This document shows positions 35,621 to 52,148 of a stretch of DNA of 53,413 nucleotides, piece after piece. Source of the stretch: Acrocarpospora catenulata (GTDB lineage Bacteria; Actinomycetota; Actinomycetes; Streptosporangiales; Streptosporangiaceae); NCBI RefSeq assembly GCF_018476525.1, contig NZ_JAHCST010000063.1, positions 1 to 53,413 of the forward strand. The letters are read 5' to 3'. A model generated the notes under the pieces. The model saw only the letters and a program-made list of their open reading frames with translations. It was not told where the DNA came from and searched no databases. A program made the position numbers and the translations under genes. Every line of letters begins with the position of its first letter. The first letter of the stretch is position 1.

Positions 35621-36973
35621 ATGAGCGGGTCACGTTTGCCGGCCGTGGGCGTGGTGCTGGCGGGCGGTGTCGGGCAGCGCATGGGCCTGGGCGCGCCCAA
35701 GCAGCTGCTGAAGATCGCCGGGAGGTCGATCCTGGAGCACTCCATCGGCGTGTTCGACCGCCACCCGGACATCGACGAGGTGGTCGTGCTGATGACGCCC
35801 GGGTTCACCGACCAGGTGCGGGAGCTGGTGGCGCGTAACGGGTTCCGCAAGGTCGGCCAGGTGATCGAGGGGGGCGCCAGCCGTACCGAGTCGACCTGGC
35901 TGGCGTTGCGGGCGCTCGGCGACCGGGAGTGCGACGTGCTGCTGCACGACGCGGTGCGGCCGCTGGTGGAGCCGCGCATCATCGCCGACTGCGTGGCCGC
36001 GCTCGGCGAGTTCCAGGCGGCCTGTGTGGCCATTCCGTCCTCCGACACGGTGCTGGTGGTCGAGGACGAGGTCGTCCGCGACACCCCGGACCGGTCGCGG
36101 CTGCGCCGCGCCCAGACCCCGCAGTGCTTCCGGCTCTCGGTGATCAGGGACGCCTACGCCCGGGCGCTGGCCGACCCCGAGTTCGCCGGGCGGCCCGCCA
36201 CCGACGACTGCGGGGTGCTGCTCCGCTACCGCCCCGACGTGCCCATCGCCATCGTGGCGGGTAGCGAGCACAACATGAAGGTCACCCATCCGGTGGACGC
36301 CTTCATCGCCGACCGGCTCTTCCAGCTCACCGCCGCGCCCGTGCCGGACGTCGGGCGGCTGGACGGGCGCACCCTGGTCGTCTTCGGCGGCTCGTACGGC
36401 CTCGGCGCCGACATCGCCGCCCTGGCCGCCGCACACGGGGCCACGGTGTTCCCCTGTGCCCGCACCCCGGTCCACGACGAGAAGGCCGTCGCCGACGCGC
36501 TGGCCCGCGCCTACGCCGCCACCGGCCGGATCGACTACGTGGTCGACGCCGCCACCGTGCTGCACCGGGGCAACCTGGCCGACGCCGAGCAGGCCGCCGT
36601 CGAGGAGACCATCGCGGTCAACTACCTGGGTCCGGTCACCGTCGCCAGGGCGGCCTTCAAACACCTCGCCGAGAGCCACGGCCACCTGCTGCTGTTCACC
36701 AGCGGCTCCGCGCTGCGCGGGCAGGCCGGGCACAGCCTCTACTCCTCCAGCAAGGCGGCGGTGGCCAACCTGGCCCAGGCGCTGGCCGAGGAGTGGGCCG
36801 AGCACGGTATCCGGGTCAACTGCGTCAACCCCGAACCGGCCACCACCCGCTTCCGCTCGTTCACCGAGGAGCCCCCGGCCAGCCTGCTGACGCCCGCGGA
36901 GGCCGCCCGTACCAGCCTGGCGGTGCTGGCCTCCGACCTCACCGGCCAGGTGATCGACGTACGGGCGGGCTAG
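35621..36973 (+). CDS. Bifunctional cytidylyltransferase/SDR (CDP-ribitol synthase-like)
   Basis: 450 residues. Residues 1-230 form an IspD/TarI-type cytidylyltransferase: VVLAGGVGQRMGLGAPKQLL, LLHDAVRPLVEP, RRAQTPQCFRLSVI and TDDCGVLL. From about 245 to the end is a short-chain reductase: VVFGGSYGLGADIAALAA, then SGSALRGQAGH with YSSSK (Ser, Tyr, Lys triad). This order equals Haemophilus Bcs1/Acs1, which reduces ribulose-5-phosphate and then makes CDP-ribitol. There is no IspF gene beside it, so an MEP-pathway IspD is less likely. The ribitol assignment is inference from architecture. Its 3' end overlaps the convergent GT2 by four bases. Confidence 0.88.
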   Translation: MSGSRLPAVGVVLAGGVGQRMGLGAPKQLLKIAGRSILEHSIGVFDRHPDIDEVVVLMTPGFTDQVRELVARNGFRKVGQVIEGGASRTESTWLALRALGDRECDVLLHDAVRPLVEPRIIADCVAALGEFQAACVAIPSSDTVLVVEDEVVRDTPDRSRLRRAQTPQCFRLSVIRDAYARALADPEFAGRPATDDCGVLLRYRPDVPIAIVAGSEHNMKVTHPVDAFIADRLFQLTAAPVPDVGRLDGRTLVVFGGSYGLGADIAALAAAHGATVFPCARTPVHDEKAVADALARAYAATGRIDYVVDAATVLHRGNLADAEQAAVEETIAVNYLGPVTVARAAFKHLAESHGHLLLFTSGSALRGQAGHSLYSSSKAAVANLAQALAEEWAEHGIRVNCVNPEPATTRFRSFTEEPPASLLTPAEAARTSLAVLASDLTGQVIDVRAG

Positions 36974-38034: not shown

Positions 38035-39531
38035 GTGGTCGGCAACCTCGAGGGGGGACCGGTGGAGGACTCGGGTGTTGACTCGGGCGTTCACGTGGGC
38101 GGGGACGCCTACGGCGGGGTCCGGGTCGCTCCCCGCCAGGTTCGCCGCCGCCCGCGGGCCGGAGTCCGGTCGCTGGCGATCACCGGGGCGCTGTCCAGCC
38201 TGGTGCTGGTCGGCGCCGGGTTCGCCTGGGCCATCCCGAGCTACGTGAGCGGGCAGATCTCCTCGGTGGACGCGGGCACCGCCGGTTCCGAGACGCAGGG
38301 CGCGATGAACATCCTGCTGGTCGGGCTGGACAAGCGGGACGATCTCAGCCGCCGCGAGCAGAACCAGCTGCACCTGGGCCGGGACGCCGGGGAGCGCACC
38401 GACACGATGATGGTCATCCACGTGTCCGAGGACCACCGGCGCGTCACCGTGGTCTCGCTGCCCCGCGACACCTGGCTGGACGTGCCGGGCAAGGGCGAGC
38501 GCAAGATCAACTCGGCGTACCAGTTCGGCGGGGCCAAACTGGCGGTGCGCACCGTGCAGCAGGCCACCGGGCTGCGGATCAACCACTACGTCGAGGTGGA
38601 CGTGATGGGCTTCATCGACGTGGTCGAGTCGCTGGGCGGGGTGACCGTGTGCACCCCGGTGGCGATCAACGACGACAAGACCAAGCTGGTGCTCGCCCCC
38701 GGCACCCACGACCTCAACGGCGTCAGCGCCCTGGCCTACGCCCGCACCCGGGCCACCGGCCGGGCCGACCTGGACCGCATCGACCGCCAGCAGCAGGTGA
38801 TCTCGGCCCTGCTGGCCAAGGCGCTGAGCGGCGACACTCTCTCCAACCCCGCCAAACTCGGCGGCCTGGTCAACTCCACCCTCCGCACCCTGACCGTCGA
38901 CCAGCCCCTGGCCAAGAACCTCCTCGGCCTGGCCACCCAGTTCAGGGACCTCTCCCTCGACGACATCTCCTTCGTCACCGTCCCCCTGGCCGACGTCAAC
39001 TACCGCACCTCCACCGGCGAATCCGCCGTCCTCTGGGACAAGCCGGCCGCCCGCGACCTCTTCCAGCGCATCGCCACCGACCAGCCGCTGAACCCGCCGG
39101 CCAAACCCTCCCCGTCCCCGTCGGCCTCCCCGTCACCGTCCCCGACGGCCGACACCGTCGCCCCCCACCGCATCGCGGTACGAGTGATCAACGGCACCCT
39201 CATCACGGGCCTGGGCGCCCGCGCCCGCAAGGACCTCCTCGACGCCGGTTTCCTGGTTCCCTCCGAAGCCGGCGACACGGGCCGCCGCGACTACAAGAAC
39301 ACCGTCATCCGCCACGCCCCCGGCCGCGCGGACTCGGCCCGAACCCTGGCCACCGTCTTCCCCGGCGCGGACATCCGCCAGGTGGACGACATCAACGGCG
39401 TCGAAGTCATCCTCGGCCAGCAACACCACACCGTGAAGAAACCCCCCAAGCCGACCCCGTCACCCAGCCCGTCGGCCAAGCCGACCCCGACCGCGAAAAC
39501 GGCCACGGAGAACATCTGCAAGCGGACCTAG
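38035..39531 (+). CDS. LCP family protein with LytR_C domain (second copy)
   Basis: 498 residues: a short cytoplasmic N-terminus, a membrane helix about 46-67, and an LCP domain from about 91 (MNILLVGLDKRDD) with VSLPRDTWLDVPG, INHYVEVDVMGF and ARTRATGRADLDRIDRQQQ (Arg-rich acceptor/lipid site). A Pro/Ser linker precedes a LytR_C domain near 380 (IAVRVINGTLITGLG). A second Pro/Ser/Thr tail ends the protein. It would attach a lipid-linked polymer to peptidoglycan. The GTG start at 38035 has GAGGGGGC just upstream. It is separated from the KAS-III gene by 11 bases, so the two may be cotranscribed. Confidence 0.92.
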   Translation: MVGNLEGGPVEDSGVDSGVHVGGDAYGGVRVAPRQVRRRPRAGVRSLAITGALSSLVLVGAGFAWAIPSYVSGQISSVDAGTAGSETQGAMNILLVGLDKRDDLSRREQNQLHLGRDAGERTDTMMVIHVSEDHRRVTVVSLPRDTWLDVPGKGERKINSAYQFGGAKLAVRTVQQATGLRINHYVEVDVMGFIDVVESLGGVTVCTPVAINDDKTKLVLAPGTHDLNGVSALAYARTRATGRADLDRIDRQQQVISALLAKALSGDTLSNPAKLGGLVNSTLRTLTVDQPLAKNLLGLATQFRDLSLDDISFVTVPLADVNYRTSTGESAVLWDKPAARDLFQRIATDQPLNPPAKPSPSPSASPSPSPTADTVAPHRIAVRVINGTLITGLGARARKDLLDAGFLVPSEAGDTGRRDYKNTVIRHAPGRADSARTLATVFPGADIRQVDDINGVEVILGQQHHTVKKPPKPTPSPSPSAKPTPTAKTATENICKRT

Positions 39532-39542
39532 AGGTACTGCCC

Positions 39543-41552
39543 ATGGACGTCGGTGACAGGAGAGTCCAGCCGTACCGCTCTGTCATCGACAGCATCGGGG
39601 TGGCGCTGCCGTCCCGGACGATGACCACGGAAGAAGTGCTCGACGGTTGTGTGCGGCGGCCCGCTGTGCCGCTGGAGCCGACGACCGGGATCGTGTCCCG
39701 CCGGGTGGCCGGGGCGGGTGAATACTCCATCGACCTCGCGGTGCGTGCCGCGCGGGACTGTTTCGCCCGTTCGGCGATCCGGCCGGACGAGGTGGACCTG
39801 CTGGTCAGTGCCAGTGTCTCGCGGATCGACGGGCCGTTCTGGGCCACCTGCGAGCCGGCCGCCGCCACCCGGCTCCGGCATGTTCTCGGATGCACGCGGG
39901 CGTGGACGTTCGACGTGGCGAACGCGTGTGCCGGTAACTTCACCGGGATCTATCTGGCGGACGCGCTCGTCCGTGCCGGGCGGATCCGGACGGCGCTGGT
40001 GGTGAGCGGGGAGTACATCTCCCATCTGATCCGTACGGCGCAGTTGGAGATCGACGGTGCTTCTGATCCGCGGATCGCGTGCCTGACGCTCGGCGACGCG
40101 GGCACAGCGGTTCTGCTGACGCGTACGGATGACGAGCGGGCCGGCTTCGAGCACATCTCGTTGCGCACCATCGGCCGTCATCACCGGCTGTGCGTCGCCG
40201 GTCCGACCGGGGAGGCGCACGGCGGCGCCATCATGAGAACGGAGTCGGCAGCGCTGGCCATGGTCGGCGTGCGCGAGACGGTCGCGCACGCGTGGGAGAC
40301 GCTGGACAGGCTCGGCCGGTCCATATCCGACATCGACCGGTTCATCCCGCACCAGACGTCGCGGCTCGCCGTACGGGCGGGGATTCGCCGGGCCAACAAG
40401 GTGTTCGGCGGCCCGGCTCTGCACGACGGCAACGTCATCGACAACCTCGCCGAACGCGGCAACACCTCGACCACCACCCACCTCCTGGCCCTGTACGACG
40501 GCAGCCTGGACGGCCGGATCCACTCAGGTCAGCGGCTGCTCTTCGGGATCGCGGGTTCGGGTGTCAGCGTGGGCACGGCCCTGTACTCGCTGGACGACTT
40601 GCCCCATCGCCTCGCCACGGGAACCGCGTCGACACGGCCCGCGCCGCCCGCCGACCCGGCTTCCCACAGGCCGATCCAGCCCGTGCGAGTTGTCGGCCTG
40701 GGGCTGGCCGGCCGGCAGGACGGCGGCGTGACGACGCTGGGGCTGCTCCGGGAGGCGACGGGGAAATGCCTCGCGGACGCGGGGCACAAGCCCTCGGACG
40801 TGGAACTGCTCGTCCACGCAGGTGTGTACGTGACAGGCATGATCGCCGAACCGGCCGTGGCCGCGATCGCGGCGGGCGAGCTCGGATTCGACGGCTCGAC
40901 CACGTCATCGGGCAACGTCCTGGGATTCGATCTCAGCAATGGCGGGCTGGGCCTGTTCGACGCCTGCCGGGTCGCGTGTGAACTCATCCGGGCGGGCGAG
41001 GTCCGCAACGCCCTCGTCGCCGCGTCGGAGGTGGAGGAACGCGACCCGGATGCCATCCGGCCGGGCGTGGCGGCTTGTGGGTCGGCGCTGTTGCTGGAGG
41101 ACGATCCGACCGGGCAGAGCGGGTTCCTCGGCTTCCACGCCCGGCACCTGGATGGGCATGTCGGCGAGTTCGGCGCGCAGGCCGTACAGCGGGCCGGGCG
41201 GAGTTTCGTCAGGGCCGGCGACCGCGGGATCCTCCAAGATCGGTACGTCGAACATCTCCCAACTGTCGTGGCGGAACTACTCGACGCCCTGGAGGTCGAG
41301 CCGCGGCGGATCCGCGCAATCGTCCCACCCTGGCTCTCCCCGCCCGCGGTGGACCGCCTGCGCCGGAACTGGCCGGTCCTCGGGGATCGGCTCGTGCCGC
41401 CGGACGGGACGGGCGGGGACCTGTTCACCTCGTCGCTGCCCTTCGGCATGGACAAACTGCTGCGTACCGGAGCGGTGGGGCCGGGCGACCTCGCCGTCTT
41501 CGCCTGCGCCGCCAGCGGCGTCGAGATAGGCGCGGCGCTTTATCGCTTCTGA
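39543..41552 (+). CDS. Tandem ketoacyl-ACP-synthase-III-like fusion protein, second half inactive
   Basis: 669 residues made of two thiolase-fold KAS-III-like halves joined near 355-380. The N-terminal half keeps the whole KAS III triad: C129 (DVANACAGN), H270 (FIPHQTS) and N307 (ERGNTST). In the C-terminal half these positions are lost: the Cys aligns with G468 (FDLSNGGLG), the His with P596 (IVPPWLSP), and no Asn follows. This mimics an active/inactive heterodimer such as PqsC-PqsB in one chain. It probably condenses a fatty or short-chain acyl-CoA with another substrate; the product is unknown. GAGG sits 8 bases before the ATG. The next gene encodes a membrane protein. Confidence 0.85.
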   Translation: MDVGDRRVQPYRSVIDSIGVALPSRTMTTEEVLDGCVRRPAVPLEPTTGIVSRRVAGAGEYSIDLAVRAARDCFARSAIRPDEVDLLVSASVSRIDGPFWATCEPAAATRLRHVLGCTRAWTFDVANACAGNFTGIYLADALVRAGRIRTALVVSGEYISHLIRTAQLEIDGASDPRIACLTLGDAGTAVLLTRTDDERAGFEHISLRTIGRHHRLCVAGPTGEAHGGAIMRTESAALAMVGVRETVAHAWETLDRLGRSISDIDRFIPHQTSRLAVRAGIRRANKVFGGPALHDGNVIDNLAERGNTSTTTHLLALYDGSLDGRIHSGQRLLFGIAGSGVSVGTALYSLDDLPHRLATGTASTRPAPPADPASHRPIQPVRVVGLGLAGRQDGGVTTLGLLREATGKCLADAGHKPSDVELLVHAGVYVTGMIAEPAVAAIAAGELGFDGSTTSSGNVLGFDLSNGGLGLFDACRVACELIRAGEVRNALVAASEVEERDPDAIRPGVAACGSALLLEDDPTGQSGFLGFHARHLDGHVGEFGAQAVQRAGRSFVRAGDRGILQDRYVEHLPTVVAELLDALEVEPRRIRAIVPPWLSPPAVDRLRRNWPVLGDRLVPPDGTGGDLFTSSLPFGMDKLLRTGAVGPGDLAVFACAASGVEIGAALYRF

Positions 41553-41654: not shown

Positions 41655-42911
41655 ATGACCGGGAAAGCCGAACAGCGGGCGAAATTCGATCCTTTCAATT
41701 TCATCCCGCTGTTCCCGGGGAAACTCCGGGACCTGCACGCCGGCTGGATTGTGGTGGCCGGATCGGTGGTGTTCCTCCTGCTGGTGCTCGCCACCCTGAT
41801 CGAAGGAACCTTCGGCCGCCTGACGGATTTCCAGTACCCCACCGACGTGCGGTACGCCTTCAGTGAATCGGTGCCCCGGACCGAACCGAACTTCCCGCTG
41901 ATCCGCGACATCACCAGCTGCCTGTGCCTCTTTCTGGTTGTCGCCGGATTCGCCCTGCTGCACCGGCACTGGCACTACATCTCCATCGCCCTGACCGAAC
42001 TGCGCGAGTCCAAGACGATCGTCCCGCGCCGGCGGCCCAGGTCCAACATGATCTCCCGGCTGCTGGGCATCGACCGGCTCATCGGCGACTGCGGCGACTA
42101 CGCCGCACTCGACGTCCTGGACGCACGCTTCGGCAAGGTGACCGCGCGCACCAAGGTTCTGCTGTCCGGCTCCGTGCTCTTCGCCAGTTACGTCTTCGCC
42201 ACCCTGCTCGGGAATGGTCTGAGCCAGAACGTCTTCCGTTTCCTGGCCCCGACGGCCGCGACACCCGACGAGCAGAACCAGTGGGTGGCCCTGGCCAAGC
42301 AGAACTGGTGGGCCGGCCCCGACCATCCCATCGGACTGGTGATCTACACCATCCTCGCGTTCCTCGCGATGGTTCTGATCTTCACCTTCAACGTGGTGGG
42401 GGTCCTCACCGTCTACTTCGGGGTGGCCCTGTACTTCGCCGCCGACATGGGCGCCGACTGGTACAACCGGGACGGCCGCTACGGCTGGACCCCCGTGGCG
42501 AAGGTCTACCGCACCGTCTACTGGGCCCTGGTGCTGCTGGGCAGCGGCATCACCAACCTGATCGCGGTTCTGGGCAGCAGCGTGCCCATCTCGGTCGTGG
42601 GCCTGATCCTCCTGTACGTGCTCCTCGCCCCCGTGTACACGCTGGTGCCGTGGCTCGCCTTCCGTACGGTCGAACGCACCGCGAAGGCCGCCCGCAGGGC
42701 GCGACTGTCCCGGGCGCTGGAAGGCGTCGACGACAGCGACCTGGAGCGGGTTCAGCTGTTCGTGGCCGAGTTCGAACGCTGCAACAACGCGAAAATCCGG
42801 CCGATGCGGCTGCGCACGGCGTCGTTCAGCGTCTTCGCCACGGTGGTGCTCCTGCCCATCGCCCTCACCGCGTTACAGATCTTCGCCCAGATCGGCGCCG
42901 GCAGCCACTGA
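41655..42911 (+). CDS. Unknown polytopic membrane protein
   Basis: 418 residues, about seven hydrophobic segments (for example GWIVVAGSVVFLLLVLATLI, VLLSGSVLFASYVFATLLG, VVGVLTVYFGVALYFAADMG, ISVVGLILLYVLLAPVYTLV). No recognised domain. A basic patch RRRPRSNM follows helix 2. A charged C-terminal region RTVERTAKAARRARLSRALE precedes a last helix, suggesting a cytoplasmic helical hairpin. GGAG sits 5 bases before ATG 41655. It begins 102 bases after the tandem KAS-III gene and may work with it. Rare TTA leucine codon at 42873-42875 (residue 407). It ends 6 bases before the convergent exported-protein gene. Confidence 0.6.
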   Translation: MTGKAEQRAKFDPFNFIPLFPGKLRDLHAGWIVVAGSVVFLLLVLATLIEGTFGRLTDFQYPTDVRYAFSESVPRTEPNFPLIRDITSCLCLFLVVAGFALLHRHWHYISIALTELRESKTIVPRRRPRSNMISRLLGIDRLIGDCGDYAALDVLDARFGKVTARTKVLLSGSVLFASYVFATLLGNGLSQNVFRFLAPTAATPDEQNQWVALAKQNWWAGPDHPIGLVIYTILAFLAMVLIFTFNVVGVLTVYFGVALYFAADMGADWYNRDGRYGWTPVAKVYRTVYWALVLLGSGITNLIAVLGSSVPISVVGLILLYVLLAPVYTLVPWLAFRTVERTAKAARRARLSRALEGVDDSDLERVQLFVAEFERCNNAKIRPMRLRTASFSVFATVVLLPIALTALQIFAQIGAGSH

Positions 42912-49388: not shown

Positions 49389-50744
49389 TCAGAGGCCGAT
49401 GTTGGCCTGTGGGCCCGCGTACGTGCGGAGCAGGCCAGGCACGCTAGAGGCCGGGTCGAGGGTGTAGGAGTAGAACGAACTCGGCGTGAACGCGGAGCCG
49501 CCGGTCTCCTGTTGCCCGGTGCAGCCGGTGCAGATGCTGCCGGACTGGCGCAGTTGGGCGGCGTCGTCGCGGTAGTAGGGGTCCTTGACGTTCTCGAAGT
49601 AACTGTTCTCCAGCACCATCTTGGTGGCGCCGCGCGCGTAGTTGCCGTACCCGGTGATGTTCTGCAGGTAGTTGTTGTACAGGTGGGCGTAGGCGACGTT
49701 GTCGGTGCTGGGGTTGCGGGAGGCGTTGTCGCGCAGCCAGTTGTGGTGGATCGTCATGCGCGAGGTGACGTTGCTGGTCCAGCCGATGCCGAACGCCTTC
49801 CGGTCCTCCGACAGGATGTTCCAGGACACGGTCAGGTAGGTGGTGTCCAGGCGGCTGTCGATGAGGCCGTCGTTCATCCGGGTGATGTGGTTGTGGTCGA
49901 TCCAGACGTGATGGGCGCCGTCCATCTGGATGCCGTCGTAGTCGTAGAGGTCGTCGCCGGGGTCGTCGTCGGGCATCCGGGTGTCGCGGATGGTCAGGTT
50001 GCGGATGATCACATTGTTGACGCCGGAGCCGAGGAAGAAGCCGCCGTTGACGAGGTGGCCGCCGGTGCCCACACCCACGATGGTCTTGTTGGAGGCCACC
50101 CGGATCTCGGAGCCGTACGGGGTGGCGGTGATCGCGCCGTTGACGCGGATGACGTAGGGCTGCGCGGCGGTGGCGTACCGTACCAGGTCGGCGTAGGTGG
50201 TGACGGTGACCGTGGCGCCGCCCGCGCCACCGGTGGTGGTGGTCAGCCCCATGCCACTCGTGGCGGCGAACCCGTCAGCGTTGCTGGACCAGGTACGCCC
50301 ACCGGGTGAGGGGGTCGGGGTGGGTGAGGTGACGACGGAGCCAGTACAGGCGGTGCCGTTGAGGGTGAACGAGGACGGCACCGGGTTGGACCCCGTCCAA
50401 CTGCCGTTGAAGCCGATACCGGTACTGGCCCCGGTAGCCAGAGCACCGTTGTAGGAGACGTTGGTCGCGGTGATAGCGGCACCACTCTGGCTGTAGGTGG
50501 CGTTCCAACCCTGGACGACCGTCTGCCCGGCGGCGAAATTCCACCGGAGCTGCCAGGAGGAAAGCGGATCACCAAGGTTGGTGATCGTGATGTCGGCACC
50601 GAATCCACCAGCCCACTGCGAGCCGATGGCATAGGTGACCCGGCAACCGGGAGCCGCCGAAGCCGGGCCGGCGGTGAAGGTCAGGGCCGCGGTGAGGGGG
50701 ATGGCGGCGGCCAGCGCGACCAGCCGCGTTCGTAAGGTACGCAT
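49389..50744 (-). CDS. Secreted pectate lyase (PL1) with CBM2
   Basis: 451 residues: a signal peptide (VALAAAIPLTAALTFTAGPA), a family 2 carbohydrate-binding module of about residues 30-135 with the conserved Trp and Gly spacing, a Thr/Pro/Ser linker, and a parallel beta-helix pectate lyase. The PL1 calcium/active-site blocks include VWIDHNHITRMND, the RNPSTDN loop with the catalytic Arg, and YDGIQMDGAHH. It cleaves polygalacturonate by beta-elimination outside the cell. AGGAG sits 7 bases before the ATG. It is cotranscribed with the upstream pectinesterase (30-base gap), and the two share a nearly identical CBM2. Confidence 0.93.
   Translation of the reverse strand: MRTLRTRLVALAAAIPLTAALTFTAGPASAAPGCRVTYAIGSQWAGGFGADITITNLGDPLSSWQLRWNFAAGQTVVQGWNATYSQSGAAITATNVSYNGALATGASTGIGFNGSWTGSNPVPSSFTLNGTACTGSVVTSPTPTPSPGGRTWSSNADGFAATSGMGLTTTTGGAGGATVTVTTYADLVRYATAAQPYVIRVNGAITATPYGSEIRVASNKTIVGVGTGGHLVNGGFFLGSGVNNVIIRNLTIRDTRMPDDDPGDDLYDYDGIQMDGAHHVWIDHNHITRMNDGLIDSRLDTTYLTVSWNILSEDRKAFGIGWTSNVTSRMTIHHNWLRDNASRNPSTDNVAYAHLYNNYLQNITGYGNYARGATKMVLENSYFENVKDPYYRDDAAQLRQSGSICTGCTGQQETGGSAFTPSSFYSYTLDPASSVPGLLRTYAGPQANIGL
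50341..50673 (-). repeat. CBM2-coding repeat, copy A
   Basis: 333 bases inside the pectate lyase gene, about 95% identical to 51688-52020 (about 18 differences counted by eye), coding for the cellulose-binding module. Most differences are at third codon positions. Confidence 0.85.
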
Positions 50745-50774: not shown

Positions 50775-52148
50775 TCAGCCGACGGGGTTCCAGCCGTCGG
50801 AACCGGCCAGGTATCTCTGCGGGGTGTAGTTGGCCGCCTGCGCATCGCTCAGCTGCGGCCGGTTGGCGTTGACCCCTGCTCCGGCACCCGTATTGCGATA
50901 TTCCAGGAAACGGGCGTTCTGCCAGATGTTGGTGGACATGTCGGTCCACGGCTGCGAGGTCCTGATCGTTGAGCTGAGCGTGGACTCGCGGTAGAGCACC
51001 TGGGCGTCGGGACGCCAGGGCCTGCCCAGGGTGGTGGTGTTCGCGGTGGCTCCGGTGACGCGGGACCGGTAGAACAGGAAGCCGTAGGTCTTGGCCGCGG
51101 GCGTACTGGCGGCGGTGATCGGGCCGCCGGTGCTGCGCTTCTCGTAGATGTCGCAGTTGTCGAAGACGATGGTGCCGCCGCCGAAGATGAAGTCGACGGT
51201 GCCCTCGACGTAGGAGTTCCTGACGTACGCGCGGGCGGAGTCGTTGACCAGCAGGGTGTCCTGATCGCCCAGGACACGCACGTTGGTCAGGGTGGTACGG
51301 TCGCCGTCCAGCCGGAGCGCCACGGCCTGCTGCCCCTCGGGGGTCGAGGTCTCGTCGAAGTCGTTGGAGACCGTCAGGTTGGTCCCGGCGAAGTCCCGGC
51401 CGCTGACCACCATGGTGTAGCTGCCGGACGTCCCACTGGTGTAAGCCGACCGGTTGTTCACGATGACCGTCTGCGCGGCCGTGGAGCCCAGGCCCTGCAA
51501 GGTGACGTACGGCTTGTTGACCGTGACGATCTCGCGGTAGGTGCCCGGCTTGATCGTGATCACCACCCGGCTGGTGTTGTTCGCGGGTACGGCGTCGATC
51601 GCCGCCTGCACCGTGCGATACCTCCCGGTGCCGTCGGCGGCCACGGTAGGAGTGGTAGCGCTGGGTGACGGGCTGCTGATCACCGAACCGGTGCAGGTGG
51701 TGCCGTTGAGGGTGAACGAGGACGGCACCGGGTTGGACCCCGTCCAACTGCCGTTGAAGCCGATCCCAGTGCTGGCCCCGGTAGCCAGAGCACCGTTGTA
51801 GGAGACGTTGGTCGCGGTGACGGCAGTACCGCTCTGGCTGTAGGTGGCATTCCAACCCTGGACGACCGTCTGCCCGGCGGTGAAATTCCACCGGAGCTGC
51901 CAGGAGGAAAGCGGGTCACCAAGGTTGGTGATCGTGATGTCGGCGCCGAATCCACCGGCCCACTGCGAGCTGATGGCATAGGTGACCCGGCAACCGGGAG
52001 CCGCCGAGGCCGGGCCGGCGGGCAACCCTGCGCCGATGTAGCCGATGACCAGCGCGGTCACGGCGACGAGCACACGGCGTCCTGACCGTCGTATGGGGCG
52101 ATGTCGGTGAACCGCCGTCAGCAGGCGGGTCGGGTCCGCTGCTTTCAC
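50775..52148 (-). CDS. Secreted pectinesterase (CE8) with CBM2
   Basis: 457 residues: a long, Arg-rich signal peptide (RRVLVAVTALVIGYIGAGLP), a CBM2 module nearly identical to the one in the pectate lyase, a Ser/Pro linker, and a CE8 pectin methylesterase: PGTYREIVTVNKPYVTLQG, STPEGQQAVALRLDGD, GDQDTLLV, YVEGTVDFIFGGGTIVF (catalytic Asp) and LGRPWRPDAQVLYRES. It demethylates pectin so the lyase can act. GTG 52148 has AAGGA seven bases upstream. It is the first gene of the two-gene pectin operon. Confidence 0.93.
   Translation of the reverse strand: MKAADPTRLLTAVHRHRPIRRSGRRVLVAVTALVIGYIGAGLPAGPASAAPGCRVTYAISSQWAGGFGADITITNLGDPLSSWQLRWNFTAGQTVVQGWNATYSQSGTAVTATNVSYNGALATGASTGIGFNGSWTGSNPVPSSFTLNGTTCTGSVISSPSPSATTPTVAADGTGRYRTVQAAIDAVPANNTSRVVITIKPGTYREIVTVNKPYVTLQGLGSTAAQTVIVNNRSAYTSGTSGSYTMVVSGRDFAGTNLTVSNDFDETSTPEGQQAVALRLDGDRTTLTNVRVLGDQDTLLVNDSARAYVRNSYVEGTVDFIFGGGTIVFDNCDIYEKRSTGGPITAASTPAAKTYGFLFYRSRVTGATANTTTLGRPWRPDAQVLYRESTLSSTIRTSQPWTDMSTNIWQNARFLEYRNTGAGAGVNANRPQLSDAQAANYTPQRYLAGSDGWNPVG
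51688..52020 (-). repeat. CBM2-coding repeat, copy B
   Basis: Partner of copy A at 50341-50673 (offset 1347 bases), inside the pectinesterase gene. Confidence 0.85.

Follow-up and report, generated by a model that had tools for sequence, protein, structure and literature searches.

Why a single bacterial gene should encode two KAS III-like halves, of which one bears a complete catalytic triad and the other lacks it, and what such a protein may do, are the questions raised by this locus of Acrocarpospora catenulata. The window, i.e. the whole stretch of DNA analysed here (53,413 nucleotides, contig NZ_JAHCST010000063.1), carries this gene at 39543-41552(+) as a single open frame of 669 aa, with zero internal stops in the translation. 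In the present study, we propose that its product is probably a single-chain KAS III of the LstA/LstB type, which would catalyse the non-decarboxylative condensation of two acyl thioesters and work with a membrane partner. The features on which this reading draws are the following.

39543..41552, + strand: fused KAS III pair gene, 669 aa; open frame, with fused orthologues L133-L136
39543..40604, + strand: N-half, LstA-like, catalytically complete by residues (Cys, His and Asn present); profile match of 502 bits
39927..39929, + strand: Cys129 codon, predicted acyl-carrying nucleophile
40350..40352, + strand: His270 codon
40461..40463, + strand: Asn307 codon
40605..40670, + strand: linker between both profile matches, from the match coordinates
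40671..41549, + strand: C-half, LstB-like, without triad; match of 333 bits to a profile of 8 rows that include the window's own C-half
40848..40850, + strand: Glu436 codon of the C-half, predicted base for the N-half site; Glu in 96/96 dead subunits, at the OleA Glu117 position
40944..40946, + strand: Gly468 codon, lost Cys position; Cys in 0/96 dead subunits at this column
41655..42911, + strand: membrane protein, 418 aa, conserved neighbour; adjoining orthologues in L133, L134 and L135 at 69-71%

The first-pass annotation had read this gene as two tandem KAS III-like halves, and the domain search agreed, as the Pfam models ACP_syn_III and ACP_syn_III_C each matched the 669-aa protein in two stretches, both above the gathering score. 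The scores of the NCBIfam FabH-type models were under their cut-offs. All the residues that it had named were found as claimed: the N-half triad consists of Cys129, His270 and Asn307, and the C-half has Gly468 at the Cys position and Pro596 at the His position. In addition, both halves contain a Glu-Pro pair (E104-P105 in the N-half, E436-P437 in the C-half). The second half is also of thiolase (KAS III) type by sequence, since the FabH chain 2ebd_A matched a C-half-type profile (8 rows, alignment A1) over positions 9-289 at 1.9e-25, and the KAS III chain 1u6e matched residues 404-667 of the window protein at 5.9e-9. The AF2 single-chain model, obtained with a 39-row alignment, had a mean pLDDT of 85.9 and a pTM of 0.92; the C-half was its less confident part, in which residues 453-456, 502-505 and 550-558 were under 50. 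The MAFFT alignment A5 put separate dead subunits onto the N-half; it was used for residue comparison only, and alignment A6 for the model. When the model was searched by Foldseek, the top PDB matches were FabH and OleA was among the best 50 listed, with an identity of 23-24% in alignments that do not indicate the aligned half. From the pTM and the homology, the halves would be expected to pack like the two subunits of FabH or OleA.

A frame of this kind might also be an artefact or a decaying gene, in which a sequencing error or a lost stop codon has produced a functionless fusion. Little would be needed for this, as in 14 of the 77 loci whose genes are full-length, the two genes share one frame and are parted by a single TGA. 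The distribution of the fusion makes such an origin scarcely credible. A first scan of genome contigs with the window protein as query yielded 57 pattern matches but 0 confirmed relatives, and in a later scan 80 of 156 confirmed relatives were kept. A live-gene match stood beside the dead gene in 79 of these 80 loci (all but L086), and in none of the 80 were both halves in one stop-to-stop frame. When the family (341 genomes) was searched with the dead-half profile, four more fused genes turned up in four other genomes, L133, L134 and L135 (genus g33) and L136 (genus g55), which have 62-66% identity to the window protein; seven candidates were scored per genome, so that absence in this search is weak evidence. 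The four other genomes of the window's genus showed no match at 1e-12. In the class sample (394 genomes), the fused alignment matched 13 genomes at 1e-60, which comprise the own genome, three of family f6 with full-length copies (L164-L166, 40-42% identity to the window protein) and nine with N-part-only matches; in the phylum sample (396 genomes) the window's own genome was the only match at 1e-90. Overall, seven further fused proteins from two actinobacterial families were found, and in live, dead and concatenated FastTree trees of 96 rows, which were rooted at the midpoint and have long branches, all eight fused proteins group in a single clade with a support of 1.0. The orthologues with 62-66% identity in four other genomes show that the join is not due to chance or assembly, and together with the three more distant copies and the conserved residues they speak against decay. 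The fusion is genuine. Two other candidates were set aside: the pair in G052, fused at first sight, consists of separate genes with frame breaks, and G035 lies at a contig end with a broken live gene.

The relatives with separate genes indicate what kind of pair has been fused. We compared 96 pairs, made up of 76 kept scan loci, the 8 fused proteins and another 12 pairs. At least one pair is counted twice, as L024 and L042 represent a single contig. The loci L058, L067 and L086 (live gene incomplete or missing) and L112 (odd dead-gene frame) were left out of the trees and residue counts. Cys, His and Asn were kept in 96/96 live subunits. Among the dead subunits, Glu-Pro was kept in 96/96 and Cys was present at the Cys position in 0/96, and a Glu stands at the same place in 95/96 of the live subunits. 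In OleA (3row), as counted on the alignment, the aligned Glu is chain residue 103, 26 before the Cys, which corresponds to residue 117 of the 358-residue construct. The place of OleA Glu117 is taken in the C-half by Glu436, which also falls within one residue of LstB Glu60. Four displayed FabH-type sequences have no Glu at this position. The Glu is named Glu117-beta for OleA in one report (PMC4090904), and another describes a Glu-Pro at 117 that acts from the other subunit as present, among characterised thiolases, in OleA homologues only, all but two of the OleA proteins compared there having Glu117-Pro (PMC7064751). Because the Glu-Pro is kept in dead subunits and Glu117 has this trans role in OleA, we predict that Glu436 of the C-half is the base which acts on the Cys129 site of the N-half.

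A plasmid search furthermore found Streptomyces and Rhodococcus records with both halves as separate adjacent genes. In the loci L028, L029 and L032, the gene run consists of a live KAS III, its dead partner, a fatty acid CoA ligase, an NAD epimerase, an NRPS and a formyltransferase, which we take to be the gene order of lipstatin; the run of L028 has one extra opposite-strand gene and that of L032 one small extra gene in between. The live subunit of L028 has C128/H271/N305 in its own numbering, and its dead partner carries Glu59. For lipstatin biosynthesis, LstA and LstB are described as soluble only if co-expressed and as both required for activity; LstA has C128, H271 and N305, of which the C128A and H271A variants were inactive, and LstB E60A was soluble and inactive (PMC12141560). 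Through the lipstatin-type relatives, on whose sequences the likeness to LstA/LstB is judged here, Glu59 of L028 and Glu436 would correspond to LstB Glu60. The trait of LstAB, a live subunit with a triad-less partner that keeps the Glu, is thus present in the fused protein. Calling the C-half dead, as had been done before, is right for its lost Cys and His (Gly468 and Pro596), but this half retains the Glu that OleA uses across its interface and that LstB cannot do without.

On the residues and gene pairs compared, the closest characterised relative is LstA/LstB, the KAS III heterodimer of lipstatin biosynthesis, rather than PqsBC, because the same live and dead pair is found as separate adjacent genes, some of them in lipstatin-type operons. 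LstA/LstB of Streptomyces toxytricini likewise combine a live KAS III and a KAS III-like partner with a Glu near position 60. They are encoded by two side-by-side genes and form two chains, whereas one open frame gives one chain here; furthermore, LstC, LstE and LstF are not found beside the fused gene, which is adjoined by a membrane protein instead. PqsBC of Pseudomonas aeruginosa resembles the fused protein in that an active KAS III subunit is paired with an inactive one in pseudo-2-fold symmetry (PMC4807248). The idea of a single-chain pseudo-heterodimer is well supported, but PqsBC is only a parallel. In PqsC, Val replaces the Asn, PqsB was proposed to be a scaffold (PMC4807248), and the system further differs in its other substrates and its two chains. 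The N-half has Asn307, so a Cys-His dyad of the PqsC type without Asn is not the case here; PqsBC was rejected as nearest relative on this ground and because the separate LstA/LstB-type pairs are closer. In OleA of Xanthomonas campestris, Cys143 and the trans Glu117-Pro align with residues kept here, but the enzyme is a homodimer with two live sites, unlike the fused protein. FabH (beta-ketoacyl-ACP synthase III) shares the fold and the Cys-His-Asn triad; it is a homodimer and, in the four sequences displayed, has no Glu at the Glu117 position.

The genes around the fusion were as the first-pass annotation had placed them, with an LCP gene (38035-39531) 11 nt upstream and the membrane protein gene 102 nt downstream. 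It had treated the latter as mere context, a view that could not be maintained, since three other genomes (L133-L135) also have the membrane protein next to the fused gene, with a gap of 13 nt between the two genes. The 418-aa protein has six hydrophobic segments and matched no Pfam or NCBIfam family above cut-off. It was found in 5/341 family genomes (own included), directly beside the fused gene in four of them; the fifth copy, in G323 (L163:1764-3007), is broken, has 33-36% identity and lies on a 14 kb contig with no KAS III. In the class sample it was found in the own genome only (1/394), and a plasmid search with it gave no match. The AF model of the membrane protein, from one sequence, was poor (pLDDT 51.8, pTM 0.34). 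Of the window's genes at about 29-52 kb, L136 has the fused gene alone, and L134 and L135 have this gene and that of the membrane protein but no others. In L133 there are, in addition, a weak SDR match (27%, over part of 35621-36973) and one to 49389-50744 and 50775-52148. The LCP protein was considered as a functional partner and rejected, because L134 and L135 share no gene of this stretch beyond these two; none of L133-L136 has the LCP gene beside the fused gene. In the window, an IspD-like cytidylyltransferase fused to a short-chain dehydrogenase is encoded at 35621-36973, near a glycosyltransferase and the LCP gene, and this region looks like one for wall-glycopolymer synthesis.

Other fused copies have other surroundings. 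In L136 (4648-10880) the order is a FabF-like ketosynthase, the fused gene, an asparagine synthase and then an NAD epimerase; there is no membrane protein, and an LstD-like gene of 127 bits is nearby. In L164-L166, the fused unit forms the C-terminal portion of a protein that is about 1790-1800 aa long. In L164 (5550-10925), on which Pfam was run, condensation, AMP-binding and carrier domains precede it, and a type I PKS is found upstream and an NAD epimerase downstream; the layout of L165 and L166 was matched to that of L164 by length and start. Since L136 belongs to a different cluster and three copies are parts of NRPS proteins, one common product is unlikely.

The downstream enzymes of the lipstatin pathway were searched for by profile. 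No LstC/OleC ligase was found beside the fused gene, and the best score in the genome was 140 bits versus 851 in the positive control G366; LstC is absent as far as the assembly shows. An LstD/OleD reductase was likewise not found beside the fused gene, and the best match to the LstD-type profile in the own genome had 179 bits (G000:C117:46924-47874) versus 560 in the same control. On the contig that carries the fused gene, but tens of kb from it, G123 and G124 encode LstD-like proteins that score 170 and 174 bits, and in G121 no LstD-like protein exceeded 83 bits. Because neither an LstC nor a clear LstD orthologue was found in the genome, we consider a beta-lactone product unlikely; for this pathway, LstC was rejected, and the case of LstD is not clear-cut.

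In the mechanism that we favour, Cys129 would be acylated by one acyl thioester, and Glu436 would take the alpha-carbon proton of a second one. The following head-to-head Claisen condensation, without decarboxylation, would yield a beta-keto acid or thioester with an alpha-alkyl chain. As neither LstC nor a clear LstD orthologue was found, we would expect this product either to remain a beta-keto lipid or to become a long-chain ketone by decarboxylation. The beta-keto acid of OleA is reported to decarboxylate spontaneously to the ketone (PMC4090904, PMC7064751). The membrane protein probably handles the product, which it may move, anchor or modify. We infer the activity, the substrates, the product and all steps from the acylation onward from the comparisons given above.

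Two other activities would fit a KAS III fold with an inactive second half. KAS III-like acyltransferases of the CerJ/ChlB3 kind exist, and the dead-subunit profile weakly matches CerJ (4.4e-9) and ChlB3 (1.1e-8); an enzyme of this type would pass the acyl group of a carrier on to an acceptor, with no C-C bond being formed, and the second half would only stabilise the first. CerJ-type enzymes differ at the Asn position, and the Asn is kept here. As the trans Glu-Pro is also kept in 96/96 dead partners, and FabH chains match the dead-subunit profile far better (1.9e-25), we consider an acyltransferase unlikely. It would be comparably surprising to find a different condensation, either decarboxylative as in FabH or of an acyl group with a beta-keto acceptor as in PqsBC, for which the second half would serve as scaffold. 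The best PDB matches of the N-half by sequence are indeed FabH chains, with PqsC at 1.7e-15, and the design of one live and one dead subunit is shared with PqsBC (PMC4807248). Against this stand the four displayed FabH-type sequences, which lack a Glu where OleA has Glu117, and the dead half itself, which keeps its Glu, in contrast to a pair in which PqsC has Val for Asn and PqsB is the proposed scaffold (PMC4807248). The head-to-head condensation with trans Glu436 is the probable reading retained below.

A description of a fused KAS III pair was not found in the open-access papers searched, nor was one of assembly-line head-to-head condensation in an NRPS. A fused LstAB may already have been noticed, since a 2025 review cites the 2019 LstAB paper and another in its passage on natural fusion chimeras (PMC12141560); where a 2026 paper names LstA-LstB, the natural chimeras given are other proteins (PMC13311259). 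As judged from sequence, what is new relative to LstAB and OleA is the single chain, the lack of adjoining lst/ole downstream genes and the new partner. We tentatively suggest that the fused unit might be a portable single-chain head-to-head module, used with the membrane protein as a two-gene lipid system in Streptosporangiaceae and elsewhere as a new final module of NRPS. The NRPS-embedded form suggests head-to-head condensation on an assembly line; if true, the form at the NRPS end would join a carrier-bound chain to a second acyl chain, with no release by thioesterase or reductase. The presence of the membrane partner hints at a lipid pathway that is as yet unexplored. Furthermore, no PDB chain named LstA or LstB was among the matches listed (34/34 in one search; 60 of 70 with the dead-half profile), and LstA and LstB are insoluble apart; the natural single chain may be a convenient construct for structure determination and for a test of trans base supply. 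A separate observation concerns the unfused pairs: in 33/80 loci (including L042, L044 and L045), mostly from Mycobacterium, Mycolicibacterium and Rhodococcus, the separate live/dead pair is found without LstC/LstD and together with genes for a universal stress protein and/or a wax ester/DGAT synthase, and these pairs are perhaps concerned with storage or dormancy lipids.
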